From a virus: a stretch of DNA of 44,088 nt. The notes under the pieces were generated by a model. It ran no database searches. It was not told where the DNA came from and saw only the letters and a list, made by a program, of their open reading frames with translations. Position numbers and translations under genes: made by a program. Position 1 is the first letter of the stretch. Every line of letters begins with the position of its first letter. This document shows positions 6,314 through 35,178 of this stretch, in pieces. Location: positions 1-44,088 of the IMG/VR virus record IMGVR_UViG_3300021061_000028; one strand, given 5' to 3'.

Positions 6314-6325
6314 GAGTGCTAGCGT

Positions 6326-18338: not shown

Positions 18339-19159
18339 ATCGGCCCCTTCACAAGCAGCTTAATGCTTGCAGCGATGCCGGTCAGAAATGCCGAGATAAC
18401 CGTAAGAGCGCCCTTCTCCGACTCAGTTAGTCTGTAAATCGTAGCCTTCACCCATTGCAATCCCCACCCCGCTAGTACCGAGGCAGCGAACAACGCGAAC
18501 AGCGCGAGACGCAAATACCACAGCATGTCGCTCGCAATTGCCACGTATACCGTGACACTACCTGCGAAGAAGGAAAACCACATGGGCAGCTCTGGAAAGT
18601 GGTCGGCTATCACAAAGTCAGTAGCCAGCAGCATCGGAACACTCATGAAAGCCTCGGACACAAGCGCCGATACAGAGATCGTTGCTACTAACACAAGAAG
18701 GAAGTAGAGGGAGCTGTACTTTCTGCCTTCAAGCCGGTTAATCGATACCACCAGAATCCGGTGTGTCACCCATAACGATATGAAAACTTGTGCACCCAAA
18801 ATGCCTTGGTGTAGTACGAACTCCAGAGGATGATCCAGAACCTCTTCGACAAAGGAATCGGACGCATCCAAGTAATAAAATAGGTAAAAATTGTATGCGA
18901 GCAGCACGACGGCAATGGCGATGACGCGCCGCACGCTGATCGTCGCTCCCACTAGACGCTCTAGGACGGCGAGTGAGAATCTGGCTTCAGCCAAGCCTAC
19001 GGTGGGCCACGTCACATAGGACAAGCGAATCCACCACTCCTCAAGCTTCGCTCTGATCTTCTTGTTCAGCTCTTTGCCCCCATAGAACTCCGTCATAGCG
19101 ATAACGATCGTGCATATCGTTAGCGCAACGACTGCCCAGCCAGCCCACTTGTTGAGCAC
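18335..19159 (-). CDS. Multi-pass membrane protein, paralogue 2
   Basis: GTG start at 19159 with GGGAGGAG upstream, 274 residues, about six hydrophobic segments. It is a diverged duplicate of the gene at 11861-12739: GGKELNKKIR, WWIRLSYVTWP-VGLAEARFSLAVLERL, RLTESEKGALT, IKLLVKG are shared. It splits the head operon between the portal-side genes and the scaffold, on the opposite strand, with no terminator of its own. That placement points to a moron. Family not recognised; superinfection exclusion is a guess. Confidence 0.75.
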   Translation of the reverse strand: MLNKWAGWAVVALTICTIVIAMTEFYGGKELNKKIRAKLEEWWIRLSYVTWPTVGLAEARFSLAVLERLVGATISVRRVIAIAVVLLAYNFYLFYYLDASDSFVEEVLDHPLEFVLHQGILGAQVFISLWVTHRILVVSINRLEGRKYSSLYFLLVLVATISVSALVSEAFMSVPMLLATDFVIADHFPELPMWFSFFAGSVTVYVAIASDMLWYLRLALFALFAASVLAGWGLQWVKATIYRLTESEKGALTVISAFLTGIAASIKLLVKGPI

Positions 19160-19579: not shown

Positions 19580-20524
19580 ATGACCCAACAAGAAGAGCAG
19601 TACCGGAAGGAGCTTGAAGCCGCTGGCGTCGAGATCCCCGGATCTGAGGCAGGTAAGGCCGAACAGGAAACACCCGCTCCAGAGGCTCCCGCTGCAAAGG
19701 AGGAAGCCAAGGAAACGACCAAGGAGGAGTCAGAAGAGGACACCAAGGGAGTTGCCAAGGAGGAATCCAAGAAAGAGGAGTCAGCACCTTTACAAGATGA
19801 ACCGAAACAGCAGCGCAAGCGCTCGATCTACGACGACTACAAGGAAAAGAAATCCGAGTTGAAGACGGAGACCGAACGGCGCGAGCAAGCTGAGCGTGAA
19901 CGCGATGAACTCAAACAGAAGCTGGATGCGATCGGCAAAGCCGACACCCCGGCAGAGAAGAAGGAAGCCGCTGACGAATTAGAGGCATTCGCCAAGAAGA
20001 TCGGCGCAGAGCCATCTGCAATTCGTGAGATGCGCGACCTATTCCTGAAGGACTTCAAGCTACCAGCCGACGAGGCCCTTCTCAGGGACCTCGAAGAGTT
20101 CAAAGCATGGAAGGCCGAGAATGCCTCGACCATTGAAAAGGTCAGGTTTGACGAGGAATTCCAGGCGTCCACGCCCAAGCTAAAGGAGCTTTTCCCCAAT
20201 GCCTCCCCCGAGGACTTGAGCGCGATTAAGACCGAGCTGGACAAGATCAGCCACACGAAAGAGTGGCACGACAAATCCCTCGCCTATATCGCCTTCGAGC
20301 ATAAGGACAAGCTCTCAGCCCTCGTCACCCCCAAAAAGCGCGGCATGGAAGGCAACGACAGGAAGGCGGATACGGGCCACGACTCATCAGAGTTCGACCC
20401 CGGTGCCGACTTCTCGAAGATGACCCCCAAGCAACGCGAGGAATGGGTCAAGGCTTACGAACAAGCCGGAAAGACCGAGGGACTGACGACCAGTCCGGAC
20501 GGCAAAAGGAAAATCATCCTCTAG
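19580..20524 (+). CDS. Head scaffolding protein
   Basis: 314 residues, very rich in Glu and Lys. The N-terminal third is disordered and acidic (EETKEESEED types), the middle is a coiled coil (about 85-125, RREQAERERDELKQKL), and the C-terminus is a basic helical hook (KMTPKQREEWVKAYEQ). Lying directly upstream of the coat gene, it has the composition and position of a scaffold that directs shell assembly and is lost from mature heads. No protease domain is present. Confidence 0.8.
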   Translation: MTQQEEQYRKELEAAGVEIPGSEAGKAEQETPAPEAPAAKEEAKETTKEESEEDTKGVAKEESKKEESAPLQDEPKQQRKRSIYDDYKEKKSELKTETERREQAERERDELKQKLDAIGKADTPAEKKEAADELEAFAKKIGAEPSAIREMRDLFLKDFKLPADEALLRDLEEFKAWKAENASTIEKVRFDEEFQASTPKLKELFPNASPEDLSAIKTELDKISHTKEWHDKSLAYIAFEHKDKLSALVTPKKRGMEGNDRKADTGHDSSEFDPGADFSKMTPKQREEWVKAYEQAGKTEGLTTSPDGKRKIIL

Positions 20525-20562
20525 GCTGCAATTCGGTTCGGGACTAATTCACACGCACCTCT

Positions 20563-21846
20563 ATGGCTGCAAACCCGAACACGATGACATTCAAGCAGGT
20601 ATTCAGTGCTGAATACCAAATGTCGCACTTCAAGGAGCCTGTGTACCCGATTCTCGGAGACACACGCCTCGAAGCTGGGCTATCGAAAGGGCAGACCGTA
20701 AATCGTTCTTACGCGTCTGACGTACAAGTGAACGACATGGGCGGCGATGGTTCCTACGAACCACAAGCCGTCGTTGATACAGCGGAGACGCTGACGATCA
20801 ACAAGGAGAAGGAAGCCTCGATCTACATCAAGAAGCTTGATGAACTCCAGGCACACCTTCCCCTCAAGCAGAAGTACGGTCGCAAGCTCGCTAACGCCCT
20901 CATCAACCAGATTGACGGGGACGTGCTTCTTGCTGCCTACCAAGGCGCAGGCAGCACGCTTGACGATGGCTCCTTTGGAGGCACGTCCGGCAACGGCCAC
21001 ACGCCAACTGCTTCGAACATCGCGACTGTCTTCACGACCGCGCAGCAAAAACTTCGCCTGAAGAACGTTTGGTACAACAAGCGCTTCCAAGCGGGCAACA
21101 TGAAGCTCGAAGTGCCGGAGGGACTCCCGATCGCGATTATCTCGCCCGAAGTCCTTACCTACATTCAGCTTTACTTGGGTGGCAAGGACACCCAGCTTGG
21201 TGACCAGGTATCCACGAACGGATACTCCGGGTACTTCATGAGCTTCAACTGCTTCGTCAGCAATGCGCTTCCATGGACCGCGCAGCTTGAGCTGCCAACC
21301 ATCCCGACTGCAGGAGACACCCTCGTCATCAACGGCGTCACTCTGACTGCTGCTGCTGACGGAGCTGCAACCAACGCGGGTGAGTGGTCTATCCAGGCAA
21401 CTGCTGACCTTTCGTCAGCGAGCTTGGTACAGCTCATCAACGGCACGGGCACGGCGGGCGCGGACAACTACATCGAGGTAAGCGCCGCAAATCGTCGCCT
21501 TCTCAAGAACATCACCGCGGCTTACGACTCGGGCACCAATATCCTTACTCTCACGAGTTCAGGATGGGGCACGGTTGTCGTCTCCGAGACGTTCACCGCA
21601 GCGGGCAACGTCTTCACAACTGGCAAGCAGAAACTTCACTGCCTCTTTGGGCTTTCGAAGTCTGTCTCTGTCGTCGTGCAGAAGGACCCTTCGCTTGAGG
21701 AGAACTTTGTGAGCCGCAAGATCGGCCGTGACTTCATTGTCTGGGCCGCTTACGGCATCAAGGTCTTCGTCGATCAGGCCGTTCAGATCGTGGCCTACGC
21801 AGTGAACTCCGCAAGCTTCACCGCAGCTTCCACCACGCCTAAGTAA
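20563..21846 (+). CDS. Major capsid protein (HK97 fold) with inserted beta domain
   Basis: 427 residues following the scaffold gene. N-terminal VFSAEYQMSHFKEPVYPIL, a coiled E-loop region and C-terminal SKSVSVVVQKDPSLEENF... DFIVWAAYGIKVFVDQAVQI resemble the P22-like coat group. Residues about 245-352 (GDTLVINGVTLTAAADGA ... YIEVSAANRRLLKNI) look like an extra beta-rich module of the kind found fused to coat or tail proteins, comparable in position to the P22 insertion domain. No head protease is encoded nearby, consistent with unprocessed coat. Confidence 0.85.
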   Translation: MAANPNTMTFKQVFSAEYQMSHFKEPVYPILGDTRLEAGLSKGQTVNRSYASDVQVNDMGGDGSYEPQAVVDTAETLTINKEKEASIYIKKLDELQAHLPLKQKYGRKLANALINQIDGDVLLAAYQGAGSTLDDGSFGGTSGNGHTPTASNIATVFTTAQQKLRLKNVWYNKRFQAGNMKLEVPEGLPIAIISPEVLTYIQLYLGGKDTQLGDQVSTNGYSGYFMSFNCFVSNALPWTAQLELPTIPTAGDTLVINGVTLTAAADGAATNAGEWSIQATADLSSASLVQLINGTGTAGADNYIEVSAANRRLLKNITAAYDSGTNILTLTSSGWGTVVVSETFTAAGNVFTTGKQKLHCLFGLSKSVSVVVQKDPSLEENFVSRKIGRDFIVWAAYGIKVFVDQAVQIVAYAVNSASFTAASTTPK

Positions 21847-21866
21847 TAGCTCTAACTAACCCCACT

Positions 21867-22307
21867 ATGACCAACTCCAACATTGGAATCGGCATCGCAG
21901 GCGTCGTAGTTGGACTATTACTGTCTGTGGTGTTTGGCGGCAGCTCGATGCTTGGCGGCGTGTACAACCAGTCCGTCACGGATGTCAGCAATGGCCTCCG
22001 TGCGGGCTCGGACGGTACGACCATCACGAACATGAAGTCGGGTACATGCAACGCCGCAACGACCCAGCTTCCGCTTGAAGCGACCTCAACCGACAATTTC
22101 ACTTGTTCGGTCACGGGTGTCGTCGCAGGCGACCGAGTGCTCGTGGAGCTTCCGTCTGACGGTGGCTCGGTGTACGGCGGCTTCAATGTCACGTACTCCG
22201 CCGCCTCAACGGACACCATAACGTTCGGCGTACAAAACAACACGGGAGCGGCAACATCGTCGTTCCCGCTTGCAACTACGTCCATTCACTATTGGATCGT
22301 CCGCTAG
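21867..22307 (+). CDS. Secreted or membrane-anchored beta-rich virion-type protein
   Basis: 146 residues with a hydrophobic N-terminus (IGIGIAGVVVGLLLSVVFGG) like a signal anchor, then a beta-rich Ser/Thr/Gly domain (CNAATTQLPLEATST, FTCSVTGVVAGDRVLVELP) with two Cys that could form a disulfide. It follows the coat gene where decoration proteins are normally encoded, yet it has export features. It may decorate heads despite this or be displayed on the lysogen. Confidence 0.65.
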   Translation: MTNSNIGIGIAGVVVGLLLSVVFGGSSMLGGVYNQSVTDVSNGLRAGSDGTTITNMKSGTCNAATTQLPLEATSTDNFTCSVTGVVAGDRVLVELPSDGGSVYGGFNVTYSAASTDTITFGVQNNTGAATSSFPLATTSIHYWIVR

Positions 22308-22321
22308 CGTTCCCTCCCTGT

Positions 22322-22339
22322 CCGTTTCTCGTGAAACGG
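22322..22339 (+). promoter_or_regulatory. Intergenic hairpin between virion genes
   Basis: CCGTTTC-TCGT-GAAACGG, a perfect 7-bp stem with a tetraloop, extended by CCCT/AGGG-type flanks, without a T-run. Possibly an mRNA processing or stability element between 21867 and 22377. Confidence 0.5.
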
Positions 22340-22376
22340 GCGGGATAGGGCACACAAGCCCGTAACCACCATCACC

Positions 22377-22790
22377 ATGCTTATTACTCGTTACCTCGTT
22401 CCGCTCGTCATCGCATTCGGCGTTATCGGGCTCTTCGTGTTCGTCAGCATCCCGCGAGCTGAGGCGGAAGTAGACAGTCTCAGATGTACCACCTCGACCC
22501 TCACCGCAGTCACCGTGGGGAACTCCCTATCGGGCGTCATCCTTGCGACCTCAAGCAATCGCGCCTTCGCTCGCATTCAACAGGCGCGTACGTCAAACGG
22601 AATCTCGACCTCAACCGTTTCGCTCGCCTTCGATGGAAACAACGCCACCCTCGCCAACGGCATTGAGCTTTCCACGACCACTCCGTACATGGACTTTGGC
22701 CTTAACACGCCATTCCCGTATACCGGAGCTGTCCAGGCGATCACCAGCTTTGGATCTACGACCCTTCGCGTGACCGAGTGCACGTACTAG
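22377..22790 (+). CDS. Signal-peptide beta-rich virion-type protein
   Basis: 137 residues. The N-terminus (YLVPLVIAFGVIGLFVFV, then PRAEAEV) is a clear signal peptide with an AXA-like cleavage site. The remainder is beta-rich with two Cys and Ser/Thr runs (ATSSNRAFARIQQARTSN, LSTTTPYMDFG). It resembles the preceding gene in style. Found in the head-tail gene cluster, so probably a minor structural protein, though its export signal is odd for a cytoplasmically assembled virion. Confidence 0.65.
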   Translation: MLITRYLVPLVIAFGVIGLFVFVSIPRAEAEVDSLRCTTSTLTAVTVGNSLSGVILATSSNRAFARIQQARTSNGISTSTVSLAFDGNNATLANGIELSTTTPYMDFGLNTPFPYTGAVQAITSFGSTTLRVTECTY

Positions 22791-22796
22791 GCTGCC

Positions 22797-23651
22797 ATGC
22801 AGTTGCAGCCGCAAGCATCCTTCACGGTAGTACGGCAGATCGAGAACCATCTCGATACTGATACGAACTACGTGCAAGCAGTCATCCGCAACGCTTACAC
22901 CGATGCGGTCATTGACACGCTGCAACTCACGAACAAGGGAAGCCAGCGGTTCAGCAAGAACTGGCAGGTTCCGGCCGATCCCTCCGGCCAAGGCTTCTAC
23001 ATCTCCATCGTCACCTCGGTCTATACGGACTCGGGGTACACGACGAAGAACGCCAACTATGGCGATCAGGAGAGCACCTATCTCGTGCAGGAACGAGTGC
23101 TACTTGGTGGTGGCGGGGGCGGAGTAGATGGATACACCGTGCGCCGGATCGTTGCAGAGGAACTCGATAAGCGGCCGGTCAGCTTGGAGCCGGTCACTGG
23201 CGCGATTGGAGCGCTTCAGAGAGAGATCAACCGCCTTCCCAAAGAAGGGCAGTTTGACGGGCTGGTAGGGGCTCTCCAGGCGGTCATGGGGGCCATCAAG
23301 CGCATTCCGACCGAGCCCGACTACGCCCCCGTCCAGAAGGAGCTGAAGGCCCTCCGCGCGGCTATCAAGGATAAGGAAGTGACGCCGGCTACGGACCTCA
23401 CCCCCCTTCAAGAGGAGATTACCGGGCGACTCACTGAGCTGTTCGAAGTGCTAGACGGTGCCGAGAAGCAAATTGACACGACCGTCAAGAAATCCATGAG
23501 GGCGACCAACGAGGAGCTGTTGAAGCGAGTGAAAGAGACGCTCGATGAGACCACCTTCAACATGGCTCCAATCACCATGCAGAAGCAGCAGCCACAACCA
23601 AAGGAGGAGAAAGCACCGGTGCCGTTCGATCTTAGACAACTAGCCGAATAA
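22797..23651 (+). CDS. Virion-associated protein with coiled coil
   Basis: 284 residues. The first 100 are beta-rich (ASFTVVRQIENHLDTDTNYV, VIRNAYTDAVIDTLQL); a Gly-run GGGGGG marks a hinge at about 103-108; the rest is helical with repeated coiled-coil segments (ALQREINRLPKE, LQAVMGAIKRIP, ELKALRAAIKD, ITGRLTELFEVL) and a Gln/Pro-rich tail. Position after coat and before the adaptor suggests a head vertex or neck component. Not matched to a named family. Confidence 0.65.
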   Translation: MQLQPQASFTVVRQIENHLDTDTNYVQAVIRNAYTDAVIDTLQLTNKGSQRFSKNWQVPADPSGQGFYISIVTSVYTDSGYTTKNANYGDQESTYLVQERVLLGGGGGGVDGYTVRRIVAEELDKRPVSLEPVTGAIGALQREINRLPKEGQFDGLVGALQAVMGAIKRIPTEPDYAPVQKELKALRAAIKDKEVTPATDLTPLQEEITGRLTELFEVLDGAEKQIDTTVKKSMRATNEELLKRVKETLDETTFNMAPITMQKQQPQPKEEKAPVPFDLRQLAE

Positions 23652-23654
23652 ACC

Positions 23655-24359
23655 ATGACTGGAGAACAACTCACCACTTTCATAACGGGCTTGAACGGCG
23701 AGGCAACGATCGACCCGGACCTTCTCAATGTCCTCGTGGACAACGCAAAGGCCATCATCGAAGAAGAGCGGCCATGGATGGTGCTTCGCAAGACGAGCAC
23801 AGCGAAGTCAGTCACCACGGCAAGCACCTGGCAGACCGCCATCGACCTTTCAACCATCACCGACTTCTCCCGCTTCTACGACAAGGACGGCGGCGTGATT
23901 ATCCAGCTCTTCGACGGCAGCTCGCGCATCCACGAGTACTACCTGAAGCCCTTTGAAGATCGTCTCAATTGGAAGGACGTGTCCGATACCTGCGTCTACA
24001 ACGAGAACTCCAAGACGCTCTACCTCAATGGCACGGTGCCGTTCAACGGGACGCTTTATATACCCTACGTCTCCAGCTCAACCGCCATCGATCTTACCGA
24101 AGACACTGACCCTGTGTGGAGCGTTTTCCCTTCGCGCTTCACTCCCCTCCTCGGTTACTACGCCATCGGCGTGTACAAGGGTGCGGTCGATTACGACACG
24201 ATCAACAAGCAGATGCTCCCCACGAATGCCGCGGTGCTTGGTGCTTTGAAGAATGCGATGGAGCGATGGGACAACGAGAAGCAGCTCTCAGCGCTCGCCT
24301 CTAATAATCCGAGCGGTGGCGGTGGCTGGAGAAGTGGAGCGATAGACCGCGATGCGTAG
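23655..24359 (+). CDS. Head-tail adaptor-like protein
   Basis: 234 residues. MTGEQLTTFITGLNGEATIDPDLLNVLVDNAKAIIEEERPW and the later LLGYYAIGVYKGAVDYDTIN, ALKNAMERWDNEKQ form helices flanking a beta core, as in head-to-tail connectors of podoviruses. The C-terminus is Gly-rich. It starts 3 bases after the preceding stop and is followed by the large tail hub gene, the usual order in short-tailed phages. Confidence 0.6.
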   Translation: MTGEQLTTFITGLNGEATIDPDLLNVLVDNAKAIIEEERPWMVLRKTSTAKSVTTASTWQTAIDLSTITDFSRFYDKDGGVIIQLFDGSSRIHEYYLKPFEDRLNWKDVSDTCVYNENSKTLYLNGTVPFNGTLYIPYVSSSTAIDLTEDTDPVWSVFPSRFTPLLGYYAIGVYKGAVDYDTINKQMLPTNAAVLGALKNAMERWDNEKQLSALASNNPSGGGGWRSGAIDRDA

Positions 24360-24361
24360 CC

Positions 24362-26257
24362 ATGCTGCCCGACTTCACCGTCTCCAAGTTCTACGGGCTC
24401 AACACCGCCGTCCGGGACATCAAGACGCTCAAGCCAGGCGTCTCCCCTGATTCTCTCAATTGGGTTACTTCGCGCGAGCTGGACTCGATCGCCCTGCGAC
24501 GCGGCTATGCCCGACTAGGAACCACAGAGCAATCCGGCGCCGGCAAGGTCACCGGCCTCGGTGTCGGCGTTCGCTACGACGGTACGCAGGTTCTTTGGTA
24601 CTCGCACGGCCGCAAGGTCAAGTACTACAACTCAGCGACCGACGACATGGCCGAAGTGGGCAGCGACCTTCTTCCGACCGCGGCAAGCGGAGAAGACGTG
24701 TGGTTCGCCTCATATCAGAACCTCGCCGGCTCCTTCATGCTCTTGGGTTCCCCAAACTCGGGCGTCTACAAGATCCCGGCCGCCAATCCGGGGAGCGCAG
24801 TAAATCAGTCAGTCAGCAACCATCGGTTTAACGTGTTCCGGGTCGGGCAAAACCGGGCCTTTGCCGGACAGCGCAACGGCACTACGGCCGGGAACAAGGA
24901 CGCGACAGGGCTCTATCTTTCATACATCGACAAGGACCAGCTCTCCGATTACACACAAGTCACGGGGGAGGCGTTTGGCACCGGTAACGGCTCGGCCACT
25001 ACATTTGCCCACGACCTCGCGGACATCACCGGGGTCAGGACCGCCATGTACGTATCCGTCACGGACGGAACCGAGACGTTCGTAGACGACCGCAACGGAA
25101 ACATGGTGGGCAATCTCGGCGGGACCGGCACGGTCAACTATGCCACCGGCGACGTTTCGGTGACCTTCGCTACCGCGCCCGCAAACACCCAGGCCATCAC
25201 GTGCAGCTACTACCACGAGACATCGACCTCGGCGGGCATCCTCGACTTCAGCACCGCCTTCGGCAATGGGCAGGCAAAGATCTTCCGCCAGGACGACGGT
25301 GGGGGAAATCTCATGGCGATCTTCAACATCAACACCATCGAGTACTGCTTCCACCTTCTGAAAACGTGGCAACTGACCACTTCCCTCGATGACACCGCGA
25401 GCACGAACCTCCCGTACAGAAATGTCGGGATTCCCTATCAGCGGGCAGCTTGGCAGACGCCCGACGGGATCCTCATGGCAGATCTTTCCCGCCCGACCGA
25501 TCCCAAGTTTCGGAAGCTCCAAGTGCTTCAGGGGACGAACATCCAGACCATCGAGCCGCTTTCCATCTCGGACTCGCTCGACCTGTCGGTGTACGCCTTT
25601 GACTACTGCGTTGCGTTTCGATGGGGCGACTTCGAGATCTTCTGCATTCAGGAGAAAGTGAACGAGGTGGCCAACGAATACAACTCGGTAATGCTGGCAC
25701 GGAACGTTGTCTCGGGCGCTTGGGACCGATTCAACTACTACGCCTCTTGCCTTGGAGAACTCAACGGAACTCTCGTTGCCGGCGACTCGATATCAAACAA
25801 CGTCTACACGCTGTTTTCGGGCTTCGATGAGGACGGGGATGTCATTGAGAACTACTGGACCACGAGCGACCTCGACCTTGGCACGCCAAACCTCAAAAAC
25901 TGCCGGCGCCTAGTGATCGACGGGCTCATTCAGCCGTCGCAGTCGCTCAAGGTTCAGCTTTCCTACGATGGCGGGCAGTTCTCCGACGTCTTCACTATCG
26001 AAGGGGACGGCTCATATGTGGACAGCGGTATTGACACGTACATCGGCGGCCCCACGGTCGGATCGAAAGTCATCGGCGGGGGCGGGGCCACCACCGCCCA
26101 CCCTTTCGAAGTTGACTTCGCCATCAACTCGGATCGCTTTTTGCATACCCGCGTTCGAGTCGAAGCACTCGGCATCGGCTACGTCTCAGTGAACAGTTTC
26201 ACGTGGAAAGACATCCGCGATAAAGGCCGGAAGAACTTGTCAGCGCGGACGGTTTAA
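24362..26257 (+). CDS. Tail hub / stabilisation-type protein
   Basis: 631 residues, beta-rich throughout, beginning DFTVSKFYGLNTAVRDIKTLKPGVSPDSLNWVTSRELDSIALRRGY. Such N-termini and propeller-like repeats (W-S--R-VKYYNS, AFAGQRNGTT, YQRAAWQTPDGILMADLS) are found in podovirus proteins that plug the portal and bind fibres. It directly follows the adaptor and precedes a fibre gene. Exact equivalence to P22 gp10 cannot be shown from sequence alone. Confidence 0.65.
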   Translation: MLPDFTVSKFYGLNTAVRDIKTLKPGVSPDSLNWVTSRELDSIALRRGYARLGTTEQSGAGKVTGLGVGVRYDGTQVLWYSHGRKVKYYNSATDDMAEVGSDLLPTAASGEDVWFASYQNLAGSFMLLGSPNSGVYKIPAANPGSAVNQSVSNHRFNVFRVGQNRAFAGQRNGTTAGNKDATGLYLSYIDKDQLSDYTQVTGEAFGTGNGSATTFAHDLADITGVRTAMYVSVTDGTETFVDDRNGNMVGNLGGTGTVNYATGDVSVTFATAPANTQAITCSYYHETSTSAGILDFSTAFGNGQAKIFRQDDGGGNLMAIFNINTIEYCFHLLKTWQLTTSLDDTASTNLPYRNVGIPYQRAAWQTPDGILMADLSRPTDPKFRKLQVLQGTNIQTIEPLSISDSLDLSVYAFDYCVAFRWGDFEIFCIQEKVNEVANEYNSVMLARNVVSGAWDRFNYYASCLGELNGTLVAGDSISNNVYTLFSGFDEDGDVIENYWTTSDLDLGTPNLKNCRRLVIDGLIQPSQSLKVQLSYDGGQFSDVFTIEGDGSYVDSGIDTYIGGPTVGSKVIGGGGATTAHPFEVDFAINSDRFLHTRVRVEALGIGYVSVNSFTWKDIRDKGRKNLSARTV

Positions 26258-26293
26258 CGCCACGAAGCATTGCCCATTACCTACTATTTCATC

Positions 26294-27694
26294 ATGGACT
26301 TTTCTACCCTCGGCTCAATCATCTTTTCTATCGGGGCGACAGTCGCAGGATTCTTCGGTTATCACCCACTCGCTGCAGCTCTCCCGGCCGCAACTGCGGT
26401 CTTCGAGACCTCCCTCGCTGCTCCCATTAGCTCGTCGGCCACGTCAATGACTCTCGCAGCCAACTCTGTTCGCGGAGGCGGCGCTCTCTCCGGCTTTAAC
26501 TGCTTCACCGTCGATGAAGGATCAGCGCAGGCCGAAACCATCTGCGGCACGGTATCGGGCACCGCCGTTTCCAGCCTCACGCGCGGGGTCAGCCAGTCCA
26601 CCGGCACGAGCACCGTTGCGGCCCTGCAGTTCGCCCACCGCCGCGGTGCCAACGTCAAGATCTCCGACTTCCCCGTCATTCAAATACTGAAAGCGCTCGC
26701 AAACGGCGAAGACACCTTTCCCAACATTCTCAAATACACAAGCCAAGCTGCCGGCAGCTTCACAAGCTCCAATGACATTGTGAACAAGGCGTATGTCGAC
26801 GCCTTGGCCTTTGGGGGAGCCCCAGCCGCCTCTGAAACGGCAAACGGCTTTGTCGAACTCGCCACCCAGGCGGAAGCTGCTTCGTCAACCTCATCCGGCA
26901 GCGCCGCTCGCCTGGTTCTTCCTGCGTCGATCGCCACCTCGACGTACAACGCGGCAACTGCCCCATTGCGCGTTCTGGTTAGCGGTAACGACGGCAAGCT
27001 AGATCGCAATTTCCTCGACTCCACCATTGTCAGCACGAGTTCACCGGCTAACTTCGCCACCTCAAGTTTGATGATCGGTGCCTTTCCGGCCTATCACATC
27101 GGGAAGAACGTGCAGGTATTCACAAACACCGGCACGTCCACCTTTACCGTGCCAAGTGGCATCACGAAAGTATTTGTGGAAGTACAAGGCGGTGGCGGTG
27201 CTGGCAACACTGGTGTTGATAGTGGATCTACAGGCTTCGGCGGCGGCGGTGGCGGCGCAGGTGGGTATGCCAACGAGGTTGTCGATGTCACTGGCACCAC
27301 AACGATTCAGGTGTATGTCGCTCCCGCGAGCGCGGCCGATGTCGCTGGAACCTGGTCCACATTCGGCACGAACGGCTTCTACCTAAGCGCCTCTGGCGGA
27401 AGTGCGGGGTCAGGCCAATCAGGTGGAGCGGGCGGCATAGGATCCGGCGGAGATTTCAATAGAGAGGGTGCCGATGGTGCGGCCGGTGGTTTTGCCACGG
27501 CATCTGACGCCGCGGATGGCGCAGGCGGAGCGGGCGGCTCATCACAGCTTGGAGGGGGCGGAGCTGGTGGTGCCTCTGGCGTCGGGCAACCGGGAAACCT
27601 GTACGGCGGTGGAGGCGGTGGAGGTAGAGGGAATGGTGGAGCTGCTAACGCGGGCGGCGTTGGCGCCCAAGGCATTGTGATAGTCCGCTGGTAA
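26294..27694 (+). CDS. Tail fibre with glycine-rich adhesin tip
   Basis: The start at 26294 (ATG) is used; a TTG at 26270 is possible. The product is about 466 residues. The N-terminus is hydrophobic (LGSIIFSIGATVAGFFGYH), then a fibre body with ILKALANGEDTFPN and SFTSSNDIVNKAYVDALAF, a common fibre motif. From about residue 290 a Gly-rich domain follows (VFTNTGTSTFTVPSGITKV, then GGGGAGN, GFGGGGGGAGG, GGGGAGGASG, GGGGGGGRGNGG). This resembles glycine-rich receptor-binding tips of T-even gp38 adhesins, where loops between polyglycine strands choose the receptor. Low-complexity coding makes length change by slippage likely. Confidence 0.75.
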   Translation: MDFSTLGSIIFSIGATVAGFFGYHPLAAALPAATAVFETSLAAPISSSATSMTLAANSVRGGGALSGFNCFTVDEGSAQAETICGTVSGTAVSSLTRGVSQSTGTSTVAALQFAHRRGANVKISDFPVIQILKALANGEDTFPNILKYTSQAAGSFTSSNDIVNKAYVDALAFGGAPAASETANGFVELATQAEAASSTSSGSAARLVLPASIATSTYNAATAPLRVLVSGNDGKLDRNFLDSTIVSTSSPANFATSSLMIGAFPAYHIGKNVQVFTNTGTSTFTVPSGITKVFVEVQGGGGAGNTGVDSGSTGFGGGGGGAGGYANEVVDVTGTTTIQVYVAPASAADVAGTWSTFGTNGFYLSASGGSAGSGQSGGAGGIGSGGDFNREGADGAAGGFATASDAADGAGGAGGSSQLGGGGAGGASGVGQPGNLYGGGGGGGRGNGGAANAGGVGAQGIVIVRW

Positions 27695-27698
27695 TGCC

Positions 27699-29291
27699 AT
27701 GGCACTCCCTAAAGGCACTCACATCAGCTACGACGGGACAGTAACGCCACCAGCGTCCAAATCACCCCAAGGTGGCACCGAAAGCCCGTACTACCCGCGC
27801 TACACCGAGGCGCCTTCAGTGATCGCTCCGCCGCCGCAGTCAACGAGCCAACTTCAGGCGCAGAAGATGCAGGCCGCGCAGGCCGAAATTGACGCTCTGA
27901 ACAAGTACTACGCCTCGCAGCGTGCCGATCAGATGCAAGTGAATGAGAAGAACGACCGCTCGACGGCCGCAATCTCCACACTTACCGGGCTTGCCGGCTC
28001 GACAGACGCCGATGCTAAACAGCAGAAGACCTCGCAGCAGGGGCAGCAGGCACTCAAGAAGGTGGACCAAGAGCTGAATGTCGCGGTGCAGTCCATCTTG
28101 TCCAAGATCCGCCAAGACGCCGCTACAGAAGCCCGACAGCAGCGCCTCGATTACAACCAAAGCGTCACGGACGACATCACTAATCGGGCAAATCAGGCCG
28201 AGATGCAGTCGAAAGCGAGGGCCGCCGCCGGAGAGAGCATCAAGCAGCTCACCGCAGCCGGTGTAACTGCTGCGGGGCTGAAGAAGTCAGACCCGACCTC
28301 GTATCAGTACCTCCTGAAAGCGTACGGGAGCGACGAGGCGATCAAGGGCGCGTTCGTTTTGAATACTCCGCAGGATCAGATCCTCGACAAGCGCATCGAA
28401 GGCGGCAGATACGTCATTGCCCGACAGAATCCGATCACCGGCAAGGTCACGATCGATACCCACGACCTTGGGCTTCCCGTTGGCTTTTCAAAGACGGTAG
28501 ACGCCGGCGACCGCATCCTCGCCATACCAGATGATTGGGACGGTGACCCAAGCAAGCTCGTTTCAATATCGAAAGGGCTCACCCCTGACCAAAAAGCTGA
28601 CAACGCGGGAGGCGGTGCTGGGGGCTTGCTCCCCACTGGCGAATACGGCACGCCGGAATACACACTCTCGACAATCAAGGACTCCTCCCGCTACGGCAAA
28701 AAGCGTCTGCTCGAAGGAGAGGTGAAGAACATCACGGCTGCTAAGCGGGCTCTAGGTTCCCTTGAGCTCGTGAAACAGGCCATGAACGGGACACTCGATA
28801 AATCCGTATCTCAGGAGGTCTTTGGAGAAGGTACTGGCGTTATCAAGGGACGCATCCGTACGCTCGCGAGCGCTTGGGGCGGCGATCCGAACGCCGCGGC
28901 AATAAACGCCATCATCCAAGGGATCATCCCGACCGTTGCTCGCGGCATCTTCCAAGAAGTCGGAGTCCTCACTGACCAGGACATCGCCAACTACAAGCGC
29001 ACCGTGCCCGACATCAACAAGCCAGAGAACGCCAACAAGCTCATTGAGCTGGTCCTTTTGAAAACCCTTGAACGCGCCTACGCAGATACTTTGCTCACTG
29101 CCGCGCAAAATCAAACCAACGTCTCAAACTTCGCACCGGAGTACGAGAGCATCGTAAAGCGCATCGGCTCACTGGCAGGATCTAGTTCGGGTCCTAAGAC
29201 CCTCGTTAAGGATGGCCAATCCTTCGATGCCTCCGCCCTTTCCCCCGAAGAGTATCAACAGGCATTGAAGGATGGATACGTAGCCCAATGA
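27699..29291 (+). CDS. Putative internal / ejection protein 1
   Basis: 530 residues, helical and Gln/Ala-rich. Residues about 45-180 form a coiled coil (LQAQKMQAAQAEIDALNKYY). The C-terminal half contains SLELVKQAMNGTLDKSVSQEVF and AINAIIQGIIPTVARGIFQEVG, a segment I have seen in podovirus DNA-ejection or minor structural proteins. It has no signal peptide. With the following gene it lies between two fibre clusters. Confidence 0.55.
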   Translation: MALPKGTHISYDGTVTPPASKSPQGGTESPYYPRYTEAPSVIAPPPQSTSQLQAQKMQAAQAEIDALNKYYASQRADQMQVNEKNDRSTAAISTLTGLAGSTDADAKQQKTSQQGQQALKKVDQELNVAVQSILSKIRQDAATEARQQRLDYNQSVTDDITNRANQAEMQSKARAAAGESIKQLTAAGVTAAGLKKSDPTSYQYLLKAYGSDEAIKGAFVLNTPQDQILDKRIEGGRYVIARQNPITGKVTIDTHDLGLPVGFSKTVDAGDRILAIPDDWDGDPSKLVSISKGLTPDQKADNAGGGAGGLLPTGEYGTPEYTLSTIKDSSRYGKKRLLEGEVKNITAAKRALGSLELVKQAMNGTLDKSVSQEVFGEGTGVIKGRIRTLASAWGGDPNAAAINAIIQGIIPTVARGIFQEVGVLTDQDIANYKRTVPDINKPENANKLIELVLLKTLERAYADTLLTAAQNQTNVSNFAPEYESIVKRIGSLAGSSSGPKTLVKDGQSFDASALSPEEYQQALKDGYVAQ

Positions 29292-29294
29292 CCT

Positions 29295-30602
29295 ATGCCA
29301 CCGTCCTATGAAAGCAAACTTAAGCCGATTGCCGCGCCAAGCTATGCGTCGAAGCTAAGGCCGCTCGCCGCTGCCCCCACTCCGCAAGGTCCGACCGCGA
29401 TGAGCAGGATAACGGGAGCTGCAAACGCGGTGACCGACTTCATTGGCGCCAGAGGCATTGCCGACCAGTTCGGCGCCTCTCTGGCGGGAGCGCTTGCCCC
29501 GAAGAAGGATAGACCCTTCATACAAGGTCCTGGCCTCAAGAACGTGCTTGGCAGCGCCATTCAGACCGGCGCCATGCTCATCCCAGGGGCAGGCGTGGCT
29601 GCCAATACCGCAAAGAAGGTTGGCCTTGGTTTGGCGACTGGATACGGCATCGACGTGGGATCGAAACTGCAATCCGAGAAGCCAGTTGTGGAAGCGGTGC
29701 GCCCCGGCCTTGCTACCGCCATAGGCGGCATCCTTCCCATACTAGGCCGCATCACCGGACTTTCGGACGTTGGGAAAGCCACTCAGCAGGCCGCTTCAAA
29801 GCTTGAAGAGTTGAACATGCGCCTGACACCAGTGGAGAAGCAAAATCTCGTGAAGCAGGGCAAGAACATCGCGGACTACTTGGCGCGGAAACAGATCGTC
29901 GGCTCTCCCGCTCAGCGCTACGCCAAAGTCGACGCGCTCTACGACGATATGGAGCGTCAAGTTACACGGGTCGTGGACAGCTCAACCATCACATTTCCCA
30001 AACACTCGATCATTCAACAGCTCAAACAGATCCCTGACCGCTACCGTGACAATTTAAGTGAGTACAACGGTGTCTTGGAAAAAGTGGACCGAATCGCCAA
30101 GACGCTCGACAGCCTTCACGGCGATTCGATCTCGGCAAGCGCACTCAACAAGATAAAGCGAGCCGAGTGGAAGAACGCTTTCAATAAGCAGGGCTCCGAT
30201 GTCATCAATGAGGTCTCCGACGAGGTGGCCCGCGTGCTAATGGAAGCGCTGAACGCTTCCGTCAACGGACTTCAGAAAATCAACCAGGAATACGGCACCG
30301 TCATTGCTGCCCGCAAAGCCTTGTTCAAAGCGACATCCCGCAATCAATCTGGGCTACTTGGGAAGGCGGCCGGCCTAGTCGCTGGTACCGGCCTTGGAGG
30401 AGCGGTCGCCGGGCCAGGCGGCGCTGCAGTCGGTGCCTTCGTCGGGCCACAAGCCGTAAATGCAGTGGCTACCCCAACTCGCAGCGTAATCGGCGCCGGC
30501 CTTCAAGGTCTTTCTAATCTGATCTCAAAGACGCCCGCGGCGAGCCGAGGCTTTTCTCAGATCCCGAGGAAAGCGCTCTTTCAAGCACTACCTCAGGAAT
30601 AG
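29295..30602 (+). CDS. Putative internal / ejection protein 2
   Basis: 435 residues. N-terminal repeat YESKLKPIAAPSYASKLRP, a Gly/Ala-rich stretch with membrane potential (IQTGAMLIPGAGVAANTAKK, VGLGLATGYG), a helical core, and a second Gly/Ala-rich amphipathic region (LVAGTGLGGAVAGPGGAAVG). Such alternating soluble and membrane-active parts occur in ejection proteins that form a channel across the envelope. The start is 3 bases after the previous stop. Assigned by composition and position. Confidence 0.55.
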   Translation: MPPSYESKLKPIAAPSYASKLRPLAAAPTPQGPTAMSRITGAANAVTDFIGARGIADQFGASLAGALAPKKDRPFIQGPGLKNVLGSAIQTGAMLIPGAGVAANTAKKVGLGLATGYGIDVGSKLQSEKPVVEAVRPGLATAIGGILPILGRITGLSDVGKATQQAASKLEELNMRLTPVEKQNLVKQGKNIADYLARKQIVGSPAQRYAKVDALYDDMERQVTRVVDSSTITFPKHSIIQQLKQIPDRYRDNLSEYNGVLEKVDRIAKTLDSLHGDSISASALNKIKRAEWKNAFNKQGSDVINEVSDEVARVLMEALNASVNGLQKINQEYGTVIAARKALFKATSRNQSGLLGKAAGLVAGTGLGGAVAGPGGAAVGAFVGPQAVNAVATPTRSVIGAGLQGLSNLISKTPAASRGFSQIPRKALFQALPQE

Positions 30603-30779
30603 CTATACGTCCGAGCCCTTGTTCACGGCGTGAATAAACCACGCGCAAAACATGACGGTAAGTACCACGCCGCTTCCGATGATCCACAACATGCGCTTCA
30701 CACTAGCACGCGTCCCAATGAACGCAAGGTGAAGAATCCACGCCACGAAGGGAGACGCATTTGCAAGACTGAAATGCAA
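30603..30779 (-). CDS. Small reverse-strand membrane protein
   Basis: Reading leftward from a TTG at 30779 gives 58 residues: ASPFVAWILHLAFIGTRASV, a short basic turn (KR), then MLWIIGSGVVLTVMFCAWF and HAVNKGSDV, two membrane helices joined by a loop, like a class II holin or small inner-membrane peptide. The frame stays open to 30899 on the reverse strand, but that part is antisense to the next fibre's signal peptide and looks artificial. No gene occupies this interval on the plus strand. The start overlaps the ATG of the fibre gene, so expression of the two could interfere. Confidence 0.5.
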   Translation of the reverse strand: MHFSLANASPFVAWILHLAFIGTRASVKRMLWIIGSGVVLTVMFCAWFIHAVNKGSDV

Positions 30780-32581
30780 TGCGCTTTCTCGGCTGTCTTT
30801 TAATTCTCCTTGCTCTACTTGTTGCGCCGGCCGCTCATGGTCAGGGCACCGGTACCCTGACGCAGATGCAACAGTGGGTATCAACGAGTAGCCCATCAAG
30901 CGCCATCACACAGACCGTCATTGGTAAGCCAATCAAACTCACCGGTCTTTCCACCGGCCTTTGCCTCACGCTCGACACCAATAGCATCGTCACCACCACG
31001 AGCTGCGGATCGGGAGGGGGTGGGAGCGGCACCTCTGCCTTCGAGATTGCGACCACCTCCGATATCGCCCTCCAACAAGTTCTCTACCTCACCAAAACGT
31101 CAGGCCGCACGACCGTAGGGAGCGTAGCCACCGGCACGCTCTCTGTTCCCACTGGCCTCACCGTTACGGGGAATCGCTATGTGCTCGGCGGCAACGCCAG
31201 CATCGCGCTTGATACCGGCTACGTCATTCCGCTTCAGTCCACGCTTGATGCCAAAGCCCTTGGCGCAACCACCATCACCGTGAATGGCACGGTCAACCAG
31301 CTCACGTCCTCCGCTGGCGCACAAGACCTCTCCGCAAACCGAACGTGGACGCTTTCATTACCCAACCACGTCGTCTTCCCTTCGAGCTTTGTCGCCACAA
31401 GTGCATCCACCACCAACGCCACCTCCACGAACCAGGCCATCACCAACCTCCTCACCTACGGAGGCGTCACAGGAAACTCGTGGGACGACTTCTGTGTCTC
31501 CATCACCGGAAGCGCGGCACTCTGCGATGGGGATGACGCATCAGGAGCAGGAGGCAGCGGCACGTCCGCCTTTGAAGTAGCAACGACCTCTGATATCTCC
31601 GTCTCGCAGCTCGCCTACTTCTCCAAGACCTCCGGCCGCACCACGCTTGCTTCCGTGGCTACCGGCACCGTATCAGGGACTAACGGGATAACCGTCACCG
31701 CAGGACGCTCCGCAATCGGCGGGGCGCTGGCGATTGACTGCACCGTAGCGTCAGGTTCAGCGGCAGGATGTCTCTCTAACTCTGACTGGACAACCTTTAA
31801 CGGCAAAGAGAGCGTTCTTACCTTCACCGCGCCTCTCATACGTTCCGGCAACACAATCAACTGGACTGGCCTTGCTACCTCCTCACAGCCCGCCTCATCG
31901 AACCTTCTGGTAAGCAACGGCGGTTCTAGTGTGTATGGAGTCGCCACATCCTCGGCCTCTTGTTCTTCAGGTGTCTCGTGCTCCACCTTCACCGTAGTCG
32001 GTTCCGTTGCGCCCTCTATCACCAACACCCTCACCGCAGGAGATAACTTAACTCGTACGGGCGATGACATTGACCTGGACGCCACGCTTCTAGCTCTTAC
32101 CGGAATCACCTCAACCGGAGCCATAGATTTCGGAGGAGCTGTCCTTGAGATTTCAAACGGCACGAACCCCACCGCAAACGACGTAGGAGAACTCGCGCAC
32201 GACACCACCGACAACATGCTTGTCCTCGATGACTTCATTGTGGGCAAGGCAACGGAGCGGATCTGGGGCGTGACCGTCGCCTCCACTTCCGTTTACATGA
32301 TTTCCGGCACGAACCTCCCCGTCCCCGACCAGGCAGACGGCTACACGATGACCTCGATAACGTGCAAGACCGTTTCGGGAACATCCGTAGCAATAACCAT
32401 CACCGATGGTTCAAACGCCACCGAGTCCATTACCTGTGACTCTGATGGAGCCACCGATGACGGAACGATTACGAACGCGGCCGTGACTGCTGGTGAAGAT
32501 ATGTACCTCGACTTCGGCACCGTTTCCGGCGCGGTAGATAGCCTAACCGTGAGCATCTTCGGCCAGTGGACGAGAGAGTAG
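30779..32581 (+). CDS. Large fibre-like protein with signal peptide
   Basis: 600 residues. MRFLGCLLILLALLVAPAAHG is a typical signal peptide ending in AHG. The body is beta-rich and Ser/Thr-rich. A module recurs at about residues 83-141 and 259-315: GSGTSAFEIATTSDI, LTKTSGRTTVGSVATGT and GSGTSAFEVATTSDI, FSKTSGRTTLASVATGT. Other markers are GNSWDDFCVSITGSAALCDG, DWTTFNGKE and SNLLVSNGGSSVYGVATSS, which are phage-fibre style. C-terminal part is a compact beta domain (VASTSVYMISGTNLPVPDQ). A secreted fibre is unusual. Confidence 0.65.
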   Translation: MRFLGCLLILLALLVAPAAHGQGTGTLTQMQQWVSTSSPSSAITQTVIGKPIKLTGLSTGLCLTLDTNSIVTTTSCGSGGGGSGTSAFEIATTSDIALQQVLYLTKTSGRTTVGSVATGTLSVPTGLTVTGNRYVLGGNASIALDTGYVIPLQSTLDAKALGATTITVNGTVNQLTSSAGAQDLSANRTWTLSLPNHVVFPSSFVATSASTTNATSTNQAITNLLTYGGVTGNSWDDFCVSITGSAALCDGDDASGAGGSGTSAFEVATTSDISVSQLAYFSKTSGRTTLASVATGTVSGTNGITVTAGRSAIGGALAIDCTVASGSAAGCLSNSDWTTFNGKESVLTFTAPLIRSGNTINWTGLATSSQPASSNLLVSNGGSSVYGVATSSASCSSGVSCSTFTVVGSVAPSITNTLTAGDNLTRTGDDIDLDATLLALTGITSTGAIDFGGAVLEISNGTNPTANDVGELAHDTTDNMLVLDDFIVGKATERIWGVTVASTSVYMISGTNLPVPDQADGYTMTSITCKTVSGTSVAITITDGSNATESITCDSDGATDDGTITNAAVTAGEDMYLDFGTVSGAVDSLTVSIFGQWTRE

Positions 32582-32583
32582 GT

Positions 32584-35178
32584 ATGAAGAAGCTCCTCCT
32601 CATCCTCGCGCTTCTTTCACCAGGTATCGCCAGCGCGAGCTTGGTGGACTCGACTTCAAACAGCGGCTTCTCCACCTCTCCTATCTGCACCGTGCCTACC
32701 GGGGTTGCTGCCAACGATATCGTCATCATGACCGCCACCGTGGAAGTGGGCGCGGCATTTGACCCTGTAGACCTTCCCACCGACTTCACGGAGATTCAAG
32801 AAAACGATGTCACCGCTGACGGCCAGACCATGTGGCTCGGCTGGAAACGCCTCACGGGCGCAGATTCCGGCTCATACACCTTCGGCTCGGTCACAGACGG
32901 CGGGTCAAACCGAGAGTGGATTTGTCAGGCATACGCCTTCACAGGAAGGGATACCACCAACGACCCCGTTTCCACCGCGAATGTAAGTAACACGCTTAAT
33001 TCCGACCCCGTTACCGTCACCGCGACCGGCGTGACGGCGCTGAATGGCGATGACTTGCTTTGGATTTCCGCGCCGGACGTCAACTCCGCAAACGTTGGTG
33101 ATGGACACAGCGCCGTGCCCGCGAACTTCACCGAACTCGAAGACGTGGAGAACGTGTGGTCAAACCTCGCAGGAGCCAACCGCGACAACGTGAGTGCCGG
33201 GGCCACCGGAAACTTGAGTGGAACGTTCGAGCTTGCGAGCAACCAAGCGGGATGGGCGGCGTATCTCGTCAGAGTACCCGGCGACAGCCTTTCCATAGAC
33301 CAACAGGCGTTCCGCTTTAGAAACGATGACGGGTCAGAAAGCACGGCCACCTGGCTTGCGGCTGAAAACGCCCACATCACCCAACCCATGATGACGAACA
33401 CGCGGCTTCGTCTTCAGGCCAGCACCACCGGAGACTTGCCCTCATCCGCGTACCAACTCGAATACAAGCTCTCCACAGACTCGACATACAAGTTGGTGGG
33501 CACCACCAGCCCTTCAATTTCCTTTGTCGCCTCCTCCACCCCAGTCGGCGATACGGATAACAGCGCCGCCGTTTCTTTCCCTACCGGCGTACGCGCGGGT
33601 GATTTGCTTGTTCTAGCCGCCTCCCACAAAGCCACGACCACGACCGCCACCATCCCTACCGGATGGACGCTCGCCACACACGCGATGGGCGAGTCGGGTT
33701 CCGCTGTAGCCGACTCTGGCGGCGCACGCGTGACCGTCCTAGTCAAAGAAGCAGACGGCTCGGAAACCGGGACGCAAGACCTCGCCGTTCCAAACGATAA
33801 CGTCACCTACGCTCAGATGACGGTCTTCAGAAAAGGCACCGGCCAAATATGGAGCTACGAGGCCGTGGGCGCCTCCGACAACTCGGGAGGCACCGCGTGG
33901 AGTGCGGCTACTACCACCGCCTTATCGGTGAGGCCAGGGGACATTGTGCTCCAGGCATCAGGCTTCAACACCGATGCGCGAAACTACAGCGCACAGGCCA
34001 TTACGATGACGGGCGTGACCTTCGGGACAGCGGTGGAAGTCGAGGACGGCGCGGGCACCACGCTTGGTCAGGACACCGACCTCAACATCTCCTACCACCC
34101 CGTCACAGCCGGAAGCGTCTCGGTAGCCCCGACCTTCACCATGACCGCATCAGGAAGCACCGCCACCGCGCCAGCGGGAGGCACGGTCATGCTCCGGATC
34201 CGGCAGACAGACGCGCCGATTCAGTTAAAAGCATCAGCCAATATCACCGACACAGGGGAAGACACCACCGCGCAGCTCTCCGTACCGGGAGGGAAGTCGT
34301 TCACGGCAGGGCGTATCAATGACACCGAAAATCCGGCAGACCCGGTAGACCTCGCCCTCGACCACTACTCCGAGTTCGAGTGGAACCTGCTAGCCACCTC
34401 CACGGCAAGTAACGGGGACATCTATCAGTTCCGTCTCACGCAAAACGGCGCAGCGTTTGACACCTACAACGTCACGCCGCAGTGGACGATAGGCGGAGGC
34501 GGCATCTCCTTCGATGCGTTTACGGTAGGTACGAACGGGACAGGCAACCTCTCGTTTGTCCACGTTCCAAACGGCACGCCGCGCGGGGCGCTCTGCCACA
34601 TCACGCAATTCGGCTCTGAAGCCGATCAGGTATCGGGCGTGACCTACGGCGGCACTGCCATGACGGAAGTAGCAGGTTCACCCGCGCTTCAAGTCGGCGG
34701 GGAAGTGGACGCCACCTACGCGTACTTCCTCGGCTCAAGCGTGCCCACCGGAGCGCAGACCGTCACCGCCACAGTTTCCGGCGCAGCCACCAAATCCATC
34801 GAGTGCCTGACCGTCGCCGCTGAAGCGGATACGGAAGTGCTCGATTCGGAAGTCATCAACTCCACCTCGGCGGCTAATCCCTCCGTCACCCTCTCGGCGA
34901 GTTCACGGAAGAACTTTTCATCTATCAACTTCCTTTCTGGGCACGATGACCCATCGAGCATCACCCCGCTTGCTAACTGGGCGTCACGCAATGAAACAGA
35001 CGGCGGGTCTATCTCGCAGGGAACGTACACCTACAACATCCTCGGCACATCCGATGTGACTGCCGGATGGACACAGACCGCAGAAGATGCGCTTGGTATC
35101 GCCGTTGCCATTGCGGAAGTACAGGCGGCAGCCGCCGCAGTCGCATCAGGCATACACGACATCTTCTTCTTTGACTGA
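32584..35178 (+). CDS. Very large beta-repeat surface protein with signal peptide
   Basis: From ATG 32584, 864 residues. KKLLLILALLSPGIASASLV is a signal peptide. The body consists of related beta domains of about 100-180 residues, each starting with a phrase like GVAANDIVIMTATVE or GVRAGDLLVLAASHK and containing PTDFTEIQENDVT or PTGWTLATHAMG and a Trp/Gly strand. Five or so stretches of Thr/Ser/Ala linkers join them. It ends before a holin-like gene. It may be a receptor-binding fibre, or a surface adhesin made by the lysogen. Confidence 0.65.
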   Translation: MKKLLLILALLSPGIASASLVDSTSNSGFSTSPICTVPTGVAANDIVIMTATVEVGAAFDPVDLPTDFTEIQENDVTADGQTMWLGWKRLTGADSGSYTFGSVTDGGSNREWICQAYAFTGRDTTNDPVSTANVSNTLNSDPVTVTATGVTALNGDDLLWISAPDVNSANVGDGHSAVPANFTELEDVENVWSNLAGANRDNVSAGATGNLSGTFELASNQAGWAAYLVRVPGDSLSIDQQAFRFRNDDGSESTATWLAAENAHITQPMMTNTRLRLQASTTGDLPSSAYQLEYKLSTDSTYKLVGTTSPSISFVASSTPVGDTDNSAAVSFPTGVRAGDLLVLAASHKATTTTATIPTGWTLATHAMGESGSAVADSGGARVTVLVKEADGSETGTQDLAVPNDNVTYAQMTVFRKGTGQIWSYEAVGASDNSGGTAWSAATTTALSVRPGDIVLQASGFNTDARNYSAQAITMTGVTFGTAVEVEDGAGTTLGQDTDLNISYHPVTAGSVSVAPTFTMTASGSTATAPAGGTVMLRIRQTDAPIQLKASANITDTGEDTTAQLSVPGGKSFTAGRINDTENPADPVDLALDHYSEFEWNLLATSTASNGDIYQFRLTQNGAAFDTYNVTPQWTIGGGGISFDAFTVGTNGTGNLSFVHVPNGTPRGALCHITQFGSEADQVSGVTYGGTAMTEVAGSPALQVGGEVDATYAYFLGSSVPTGAQTVTATVSGAATKSIECLTVAAEADTEVLDSEVINSTSAANPSVTLSASSRKNFSSINFLSGHDDPSSITPLANWASRNETDGGSISQGTYTYNILGTSDVTAGWTQTAEDALGIAVAIAEVQAAAAAVASGIHDIFFFD

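Follow-up and report, generated by a model that had tools for sequence, protein, structure and literature searches.

Conserved signal-like N-termini in fibre-like and capsid-proximal genes of an uncultured virus family

Leader-bearing genes of the late module

The IMG/VR virus record IMGVR_UViG_3300021061_000028, analysed here over its whole length of 44,088 nucleotides (the window), carries a late gene module in which five genes, beginning at 21867, 22377, 26294, 30779 and 32584, encode proteins with hydrophobic or signal-like N-termini. Genes are named below by their start coordinates, and those of the module described here all lie on the plus strand. The window also contains an integrase (PF00589), a DUF87/TrwB-like ATPase at 4760 and a terminase large subunit (phrog_38). 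A portal was assigned from position only, and a scaffold-like gene at 19580 and an HK97-type capsid gene precede the leader-bearing module.

The first of the five genes (21867..22307) encodes a small, putatively anchored protein with a short N-tail, a membrane segment at about residues 8-22, a GGVYN motif and a variable ectodomain containing Cys 61 and Cys 80. The second (22377..22790) encodes a small protein predicted to be exported, in which a signal-like N-terminus (residues 11-25) is followed by AEA/E, with cysteines at positions 37 and 135. The gene at 26294..27694 encodes a fibre-like protein with a predicted N-terminal anchor, a conserved domain behind it (26402..26776) with an invariant cysteine pair (C70 and C84 in 18/18 aligned sequences) and a glycine-rich C-terminus. 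Similarity of this protein to tail-fibre families was found through phrog_863 (tail, E value 1.7e-23), phrog_6202, phrog_454 and PF21722 (2.3e-8). Its predicted structure (mean predicted local distance difference test score, pLDDT, 52.8; predicted template modelling score 0.41) was too poor in quality for a fold search. Two further fibre-like proteins are encoded at 30779..32581, with a signal-like segment at residues 3-17 and 10 non-leader cysteines arranged as five close pairs, and at 32584..35178, the last long one, with a signal-like start (ASA/S) and 4 cysteines. Neither of these two matched PHROG or Pfam, and the 26294, 30779 and 32584 proteins, like an unrelated fibre from another viral contig (L084), had no match among phage records. 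Judged by their N-termini, 21867 and 26294 resemble anchors that stay uncleaved, and 22377, 30779 and 32584 resemble signals that can be cleaved.

Leaders were scored as the best 15-residue Kyte-Doolittle mean within residues 2-45 and called at a score of at least 1.8; the score alone cannot separate a cleaved signal from an anchor. The five genes score 2.75 (21867), 2.85 (22377), 1.81 (26294, the weakest), 2.81 (30779) and 2.24 (32584), all five starts being the starts of their open reading frames (ORFs), while the other seven genes among the 12 checked in the module (19580 to 32584) do not exceed 0.86. The frequency of 5/12 compares with 1/210 in the control slots of the family described below (Fisher p about 1e-6) and with 0/48 virion proteins of the podophages T7, Sf6, epsilon15 and BPP-1 (p about 1.5e-4). 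An earlier note on this DNA had picked out the same five genes by their hydrophobic or signal-like starts, and these scores, together with the recurrence of the leaders in relatives, confirm it. The note had also called them virion or fibre genes; virion status is suggested by gene order, by the PHROG and Pfam matches of 26294 and by conservation.

Conservation of the leaders in relatives

Relatives were collected from viral contigs scanned with the capsid, 23655 and hub proteins and from genome contigs scanned with a hub alignment, which gave 31 other non-redundant contigs. Family slots were gathered by iterated hidden Markov model (HMM) searches, with the near-identical contigs L005 and L036 excluded from the set. 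Leaders were found in 22/22 proteins of the 21867 slot. In the 26294 slot they were found in 24/26 proteins with automatic starts and in 25/26 after the L019 start was moved, by eye, to an internal leadered ATG. The 30779 slot gave 9/11 automatically, and 10/10 once L040 was read from a GTG start and the second fragment of the split L024 gene was left out. Among distant relatives found with the conserved 26294 domain, 9 of the 12 measured score at least 1.8 and the other three 1.72-1.79; a thirteenth, L233, is also leadered. Membrane-like segments in the family loci are mostly of this kind, since 60 of the 65 genes that have one carry a single segment at the N-terminus.

The nine control slots, with a leader in 1/210 proteins overall, include the main structural genes around the leadered ones. 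These are the HK97-type major capsid protein (20563..21846; phrog_267, E value 1.9e-15), which served as synteny anchor and is leaderless in all 29 family members, and a tail hub- or nozzle-like protein assigned by position (24362..26257; 0/29), which lies directly 5' of the 26294 gene, is 67-74% identical across its alignment and is likewise syntenic. The 22797 protein (22797..23651), with beta and coiled-coil regions recognized by eye, has neither a leader (0/24) nor a cysteine (0 in 24/24). The remaining controls are the scaffold (0/27), terminase (0/17), portal (0/27), 23655 (1/29), 27699 (0/18) and 29295 (0/10) slots.

The 26294 gene is present in 26/29 contigs; the remaining ones, L002, L018 and L039, stop within the hub gene or shortly beyond it. 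It is thus not an accessory, variably present gene as a lysogenic-conversion (moron) gene would be, whereas the 22377 slot does vary. In relatives, 26294 homologues follow the hub gene and precede genes for large, Cys-free ejection-like proteins, except where an HNH-like ORF (L016, L230 and L244) or another ORF (L234) intervenes. By eye, Cys-rich HNH-like ORFs adjoin capsid- or fibre-slot genes at L006:8812-9516, L016:11917-12474, L230:3222-3878 and L244:3264-3875, and are perhaps homing endonucleases. No 21867 homologue was found by HMM search in L035/L036, nor in L014, L030, L032, L033 and L038.

The leaders diverge in sequence while keeping their character. Over ten 26294 sequences, mean pairwise identity is 23% in the leader, 68% in the next domain and 32% in the rest, which argues that hydrophobicity rather than sequence is selected. 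Some 26294 homologues have an anchor with a proline-rich link, and others (L037, L041, L042 and L237) a signal-peptide-like start. In the four groups with several members, net charge averages +0.60 to +1.0 on the N-terminal side of the segment and -0.18 to -0.72 on its C-terminal side. The N-termini thus combine the features of a Sec signal peptide or signal anchor, namely a hydrophobic N-terminal core with positive charge before and negative charge after it. We conclude that the leaders are genuine and maintained by selection.

Cysteine parity

Cysteines outside the leader occur in even numbers in the predicted exported proteins. In this count, ORFs open at the 5' or 3' end and both pieces of the split L024 fibre gene were removed, and Cys-free proteins were kept outside the ratio. 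The exported slots, including a leaderless L035 protein with 6 cysteines, gave 46 even, 2 odd and 1 without cysteine, and the nine control slots 40 even, 67 odd and 97 without (Fisher p 6e-13, computed on related, non-independent sequences). Among the 21867 homologues, all of which have the membrane segment (22/22), the number is even in 21, zero in 1 and odd in 0. At the 22377 position, referred to as slot 2, leadered proteins have 2 or 4 cysteines (12 contigs, with 13 ORFs because L038 has two) and leaderless proteins 0 or 1 (10 contigs); an HNH ORF of L006, a coiled-coil ORF of L035 and two ORFs of L042 were omitted. One beta-sandwich domain family in this slot exists in leadered and leaderless form, and the cysteine pair is found in the leadered form only.

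The DWTTFNGK repeat module of the 30779 protein was found, among the matches listed, in fibre-like ORFs of many unrelated viral contigs, and 14 of 65 distinct ORFs score at least 1.8; one of these 14, L144, looks by eye like an internal hydrophobic stretch, and L073 and L019 are one and the same contig. In other kinds of viral contigs (L084, L106, L111, L077 and L094), a leadered fibre-like gene lies, by eye, among tail-like genes. Leadered fibre-like genes may therefore be commoner than in this family alone. Parity was counted for 48 of the 65 ORFs (complete and of at least 250 residues), with a leader threshold of 1.6 and with L081 and L144 set leaderless by hand. The leaderless fibres mostly have few cysteines and gave 13 even, 18 odd and 6 zero, so evenness is not a general property of fibres. 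A general cysteine bias of fibres was considered as the cause of the even numbers and, for leaderless fibres, rejected on these counts.

A transmembrane fusion and the slot-2 fold

One contig joins a 22797-type and a fibre-type protein in a single chain. After genes for the capsid, a 21867-type protein and a slot-2 protein, L072:2999-6568 is a single ORF of 1190 residues, of which residues 1-239 match 22797 (E value 3e-38). The chain continues with RRRR and a single membrane segment beginning at residue 295, and its C-terminal part is a 30779-type fibre (best stretch 8e-87). There are 12 cysteines in the full chain. Under the positive-inside rule, the 22797 part would be cytoplasmic and the fibre part outside. 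No second fusion of this kind was recognized in scans with 22797 and with the L072 fibre, in which not all loci were translated. In L042, a leadered fibre gene begins inside the 3' end of the preceding gene, which by position only occupies the expected place of 22797.

For slot 2, a leaderless relative of the window's 22377 protein (L013:8764-9138) was modelled at pLDDT 88 and compared in its place. Its fold matched YomS (6i5o, E value 1.5e-6, TM-score 0.72) and, lower in the list, the exported protein XepA (6i56, TM-score 0.72-0.73). YomS and XepA come from the Bacillus prophages SPbeta and PBSX, respectively, and XepA is described as a protein of the lytic cassette (PMC6834076). The fold is the same, although sequence identity to YomS and XepA is only 9% and 7%, and it is common among small viral proteins.

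Comparison with known systems

In its late-module position, its conserved N-terminal and variable C-terminal parts and its fibre-type domain, the 26294 protein resembles the fibres of podophages (T7 gp17, the Sf6 tailspike, epsilon15 gp20 and BPP-1 Mtd). However, the 48 reference virion proteins of these phages are leaderless, and the window's fibres are leadered. Coat and adsorption proteins of filamentous phages, such as M13 pVIII and pIII, undergo Sec/YidC-dependent membrane insertion before assembly, and the particles are extruded. Membrane insertion is predicted here as well, but the window differs from filamentous phages by its terminase and HK97 capsid genes. In titles and abstracts of the open literature, with subscription journals largely outside coverage, no report was found that describes Sec leaders as conserved among the fibre genes of tailed phages. 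Signal peptides have been counted in two Bacteroides phages, with the genes unnamed in the text available (PMC5723332). Among cultured phages, Flavobacterium phage immuto has an annotated tail-fibre-like protein that matches L077, but 0/14 genes of that region have a leader, and immuto thus provides no cultured example. In a Manatee Spring phage with a distant capsid match, 0/18 genes reach 1.8.

Proposed route and alternative explanations

We take these genes to belong to the core of an uncultured, podophage-like virus family whose genes largely lack Shine-Dalgarno motifs, whose fibre and decoration proteins are Sec-exported or anchored and whose host may belong to Patescibacteria. The N-termini, acting as signal anchors (21867 and 26294) or signal peptides (22377, 30779 and 32584), would carry the remainder of each chain out of the cytoplasm, to where its cysteine pairs can oxidize, and the capsid, portal, hub and ejection proteins would remain cytoplasmic. 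The exported fibres would then meet the particle either at the envelope or when the cell lyses, with the conserved domain of 26294 as the docking part. The leaders, their conservation, the cysteine parity and the one transmembrane fusion are read directly from sequence; export, oxidation and joining of the particle are what we infer from them. Export of the leadered proteins is highly probable on these grounds, and export combined with membership in the particle has a nearly even chance. The 26294 protein leans towards the particle because of its universal synteny, its conserved N-terminal and variable distal parts, its tail matches and the fact that no leaderless fibre-like gene was seen in the module.

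A bolder form of this proposal, which we regard as rather unlikely, is assembly in two compartments. Heads, hub and ejection proteins would be made in the cytoplasm, and all fibre-type and some capsid-proximal decoration proteins would be Sec-exported, oxidized and docked across or at the membrane, with 22797 as the cytoplasmic docking side, to which the exported fibre is covalently joined in L072.

In the textbook view, assembly of tailed phages is wholly cytoplasmic until lysis. If fibres leave the cytoplasm and are oxidized beforehand, tailed phages would have a second assembly compartment, and their receptor-binding proteins could be found among predicted secreted proteins that annotation now assigns to the host surface. 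The same would provide a starting point for tests on phages that possibly infect Patescibacteria, few of which are described.

Several observations weigh against export and entry into the particle as a single scheme. The L035 lineage, with the near-identical L036, lacks the leader on its 26294 homologue but retains the cysteine pair, so the pair can be independent of the leader; this lineage offers a natural contrast for judging what the leaders do. Parity is less regular among distant 26294 homologues (8 even, 3 odd and 1 zero) and is missing among the unrelated leadered fibres (4 even, 6 odd and 1 zero), and the fusion is known from L072 only. AxA sites do not clearly outnumber those expected from shuffled sequence, with 7 observed against 6.4 in the 30779 slot, 9 against 5.8 in slot 2, 14 against 12.0 in the 26294 slot and 7 against 8.8 in the 21867 slot. 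The charge asymmetry makes membrane insertion with the N-terminus inside likely, and the site counts do not establish cleavage. An uncleaved anchor would further need release or carriage into the particle, for which we know of no precedent in tailed phages.

The earlier note had offered either display on the lysogen surface or an unusual route into the particle. Its common part, export, gains support from the leaders, the charge asymmetry, the even cysteine numbers and the L072 fusion, while sequence does not decide between display and particle. Under display, the exported proteins would remain attached to the infected cell or lysogen, outside the particle, and serve in adhesion, receptor masking or superinfection exclusion. 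Anchors with no clear cleavage site would indeed keep 21867 and 26294 in the membrane, the integrase makes a temperate life plausible, and two more anchored, Cys-paired paralogues (2653 and 3078) lie early in the window. Yet 26294 occurs in every contig that extends past the hub gene, unlike accessory conversion genes, and sits within the tail operon; moreover, since all fibre-like proteins of the module are leadered, the particle would be left with no fibre of its own. We hold display to be the main alternative, with a lower probability.

The segments could also be membrane-active virion parts that insert at entry, in the manner of T7 gp14-type ejection proteins, and would then involve no export. 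The N-termini of T7 gp14, epsilon15 gp14 and BPP-1 bbp12 are moderately hydrophobic (1.43-1.75), and 26294 lies near ejection-like genes. The leaders of this family are, however, more hydrophobic, with positive charge on the N-side and even cysteine numbers behind them, the C-terminus of 26294 is of fibre type, and the ejection-like 27699 and 29295 proteins are themselves leaderless. A chain with such an N-terminus is expected to engage the signal recognition particle or SecA, and insertion at entry appears improbable. Wrong starts, chance hydrophobicity or host genes in a viral contig are far less probable still and, in our view, already refuted by conservation. The window's 26294 is borderline, and as the 13 window genes counted have no Shine-Dalgarno motif, start calls depend on ORF limits; but equal leaders stand at equal positions in relatives, and stop-to-stop frames mostly leave few codons 5' of the ATG.

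Candidate host and the coupling ATPase

Patescibacteria as host are suggested by L017, a relative in a Patescibacteria metagenome-assembled genome (MAG) with 48% identity and a length of 34.7 kb, the contig being all viral as far as read. Other relatives in genome contigs are L016, in another MAG, and L018, which is partial, in a Hyphomicrobiales MAG. A capsid search of 379 Patescibacteria genomes gave one strong match (the genome of L017 itself), one moderate match and two at threshold, and the hub alignment matched 2/289 genomes of the class of G002 (G002 itself included; class taken from the Hyphomicrobiales MAG). By a crude count, Shine-Dalgarno-like motifs precede 7/269 family genes (0/13 in the window), compared with 3/43 in sampled contigs of the Patescibacteria host genome and 31/45 in three reference phages. 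The proportion differs greatly among other samples of Patescibacteria and is also low in some from Alphaproteobacteria (for example 1/14 and 3/17), so a Patescibacteria host is supported but not proven. Ahead of family genes, the window included, G is avoided and A at -3 and T at -1 are frequent. RSA-ATP1, a described tailed phage of Absconditicoccaceae (Patescibacteria), differs in using genetic code 25, and the available text on it does not mention leaders on virion genes (PMC13059738).

Homologues of the coupling ATPase were found in 277/286 Patescibacteria genomes (mostly about 23-31% identity among the matches listed) and in 8/289 genomes of the class of G002, where the listed identities range from 23 to 48% and the best-scoring matches have 33-37%. 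The few homologues in this class match better, but as a host indicator the ATPase was not decisive. A lysis-type protein, taken as another indicator, gave matches in 0/192 and 2/190. The earlier note had raised a possible connection between an unusual route into the particle and the coupling ATPase. Homologues of 4760 and 6326 were found only in L037 among the loci searched, most of which span about 10 kb on either side, so that their absence is weak evidence; but L017, whose contig was searched whole (both halves), has leaders and no match to 4760 or 6326 at an E value of 1. The coupling ATPase is thus not needed for leaders, and the suggested link is unsupported. The region 4760-7324, with the DUF87/TrwB-like ATPase and its neighbour, is common to the window and phage contig L037 (L037:2-2801).

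Other features of the window

Two tandem paralogous small proteins are encoded in the early region (2653-3078 and 3078-3509). Their N-terminal segments score 3.03 and 3.08, each has six non-segment cysteines at matching positions, and they are read as a second, predicted exported pair. Two proteins with several membrane segments, similar to each other by eye, are encoded on the minus strand at 11861-12739 and 18335-19159, flanking the terminase and portal genes, and look like paralogues inserted in the late module.

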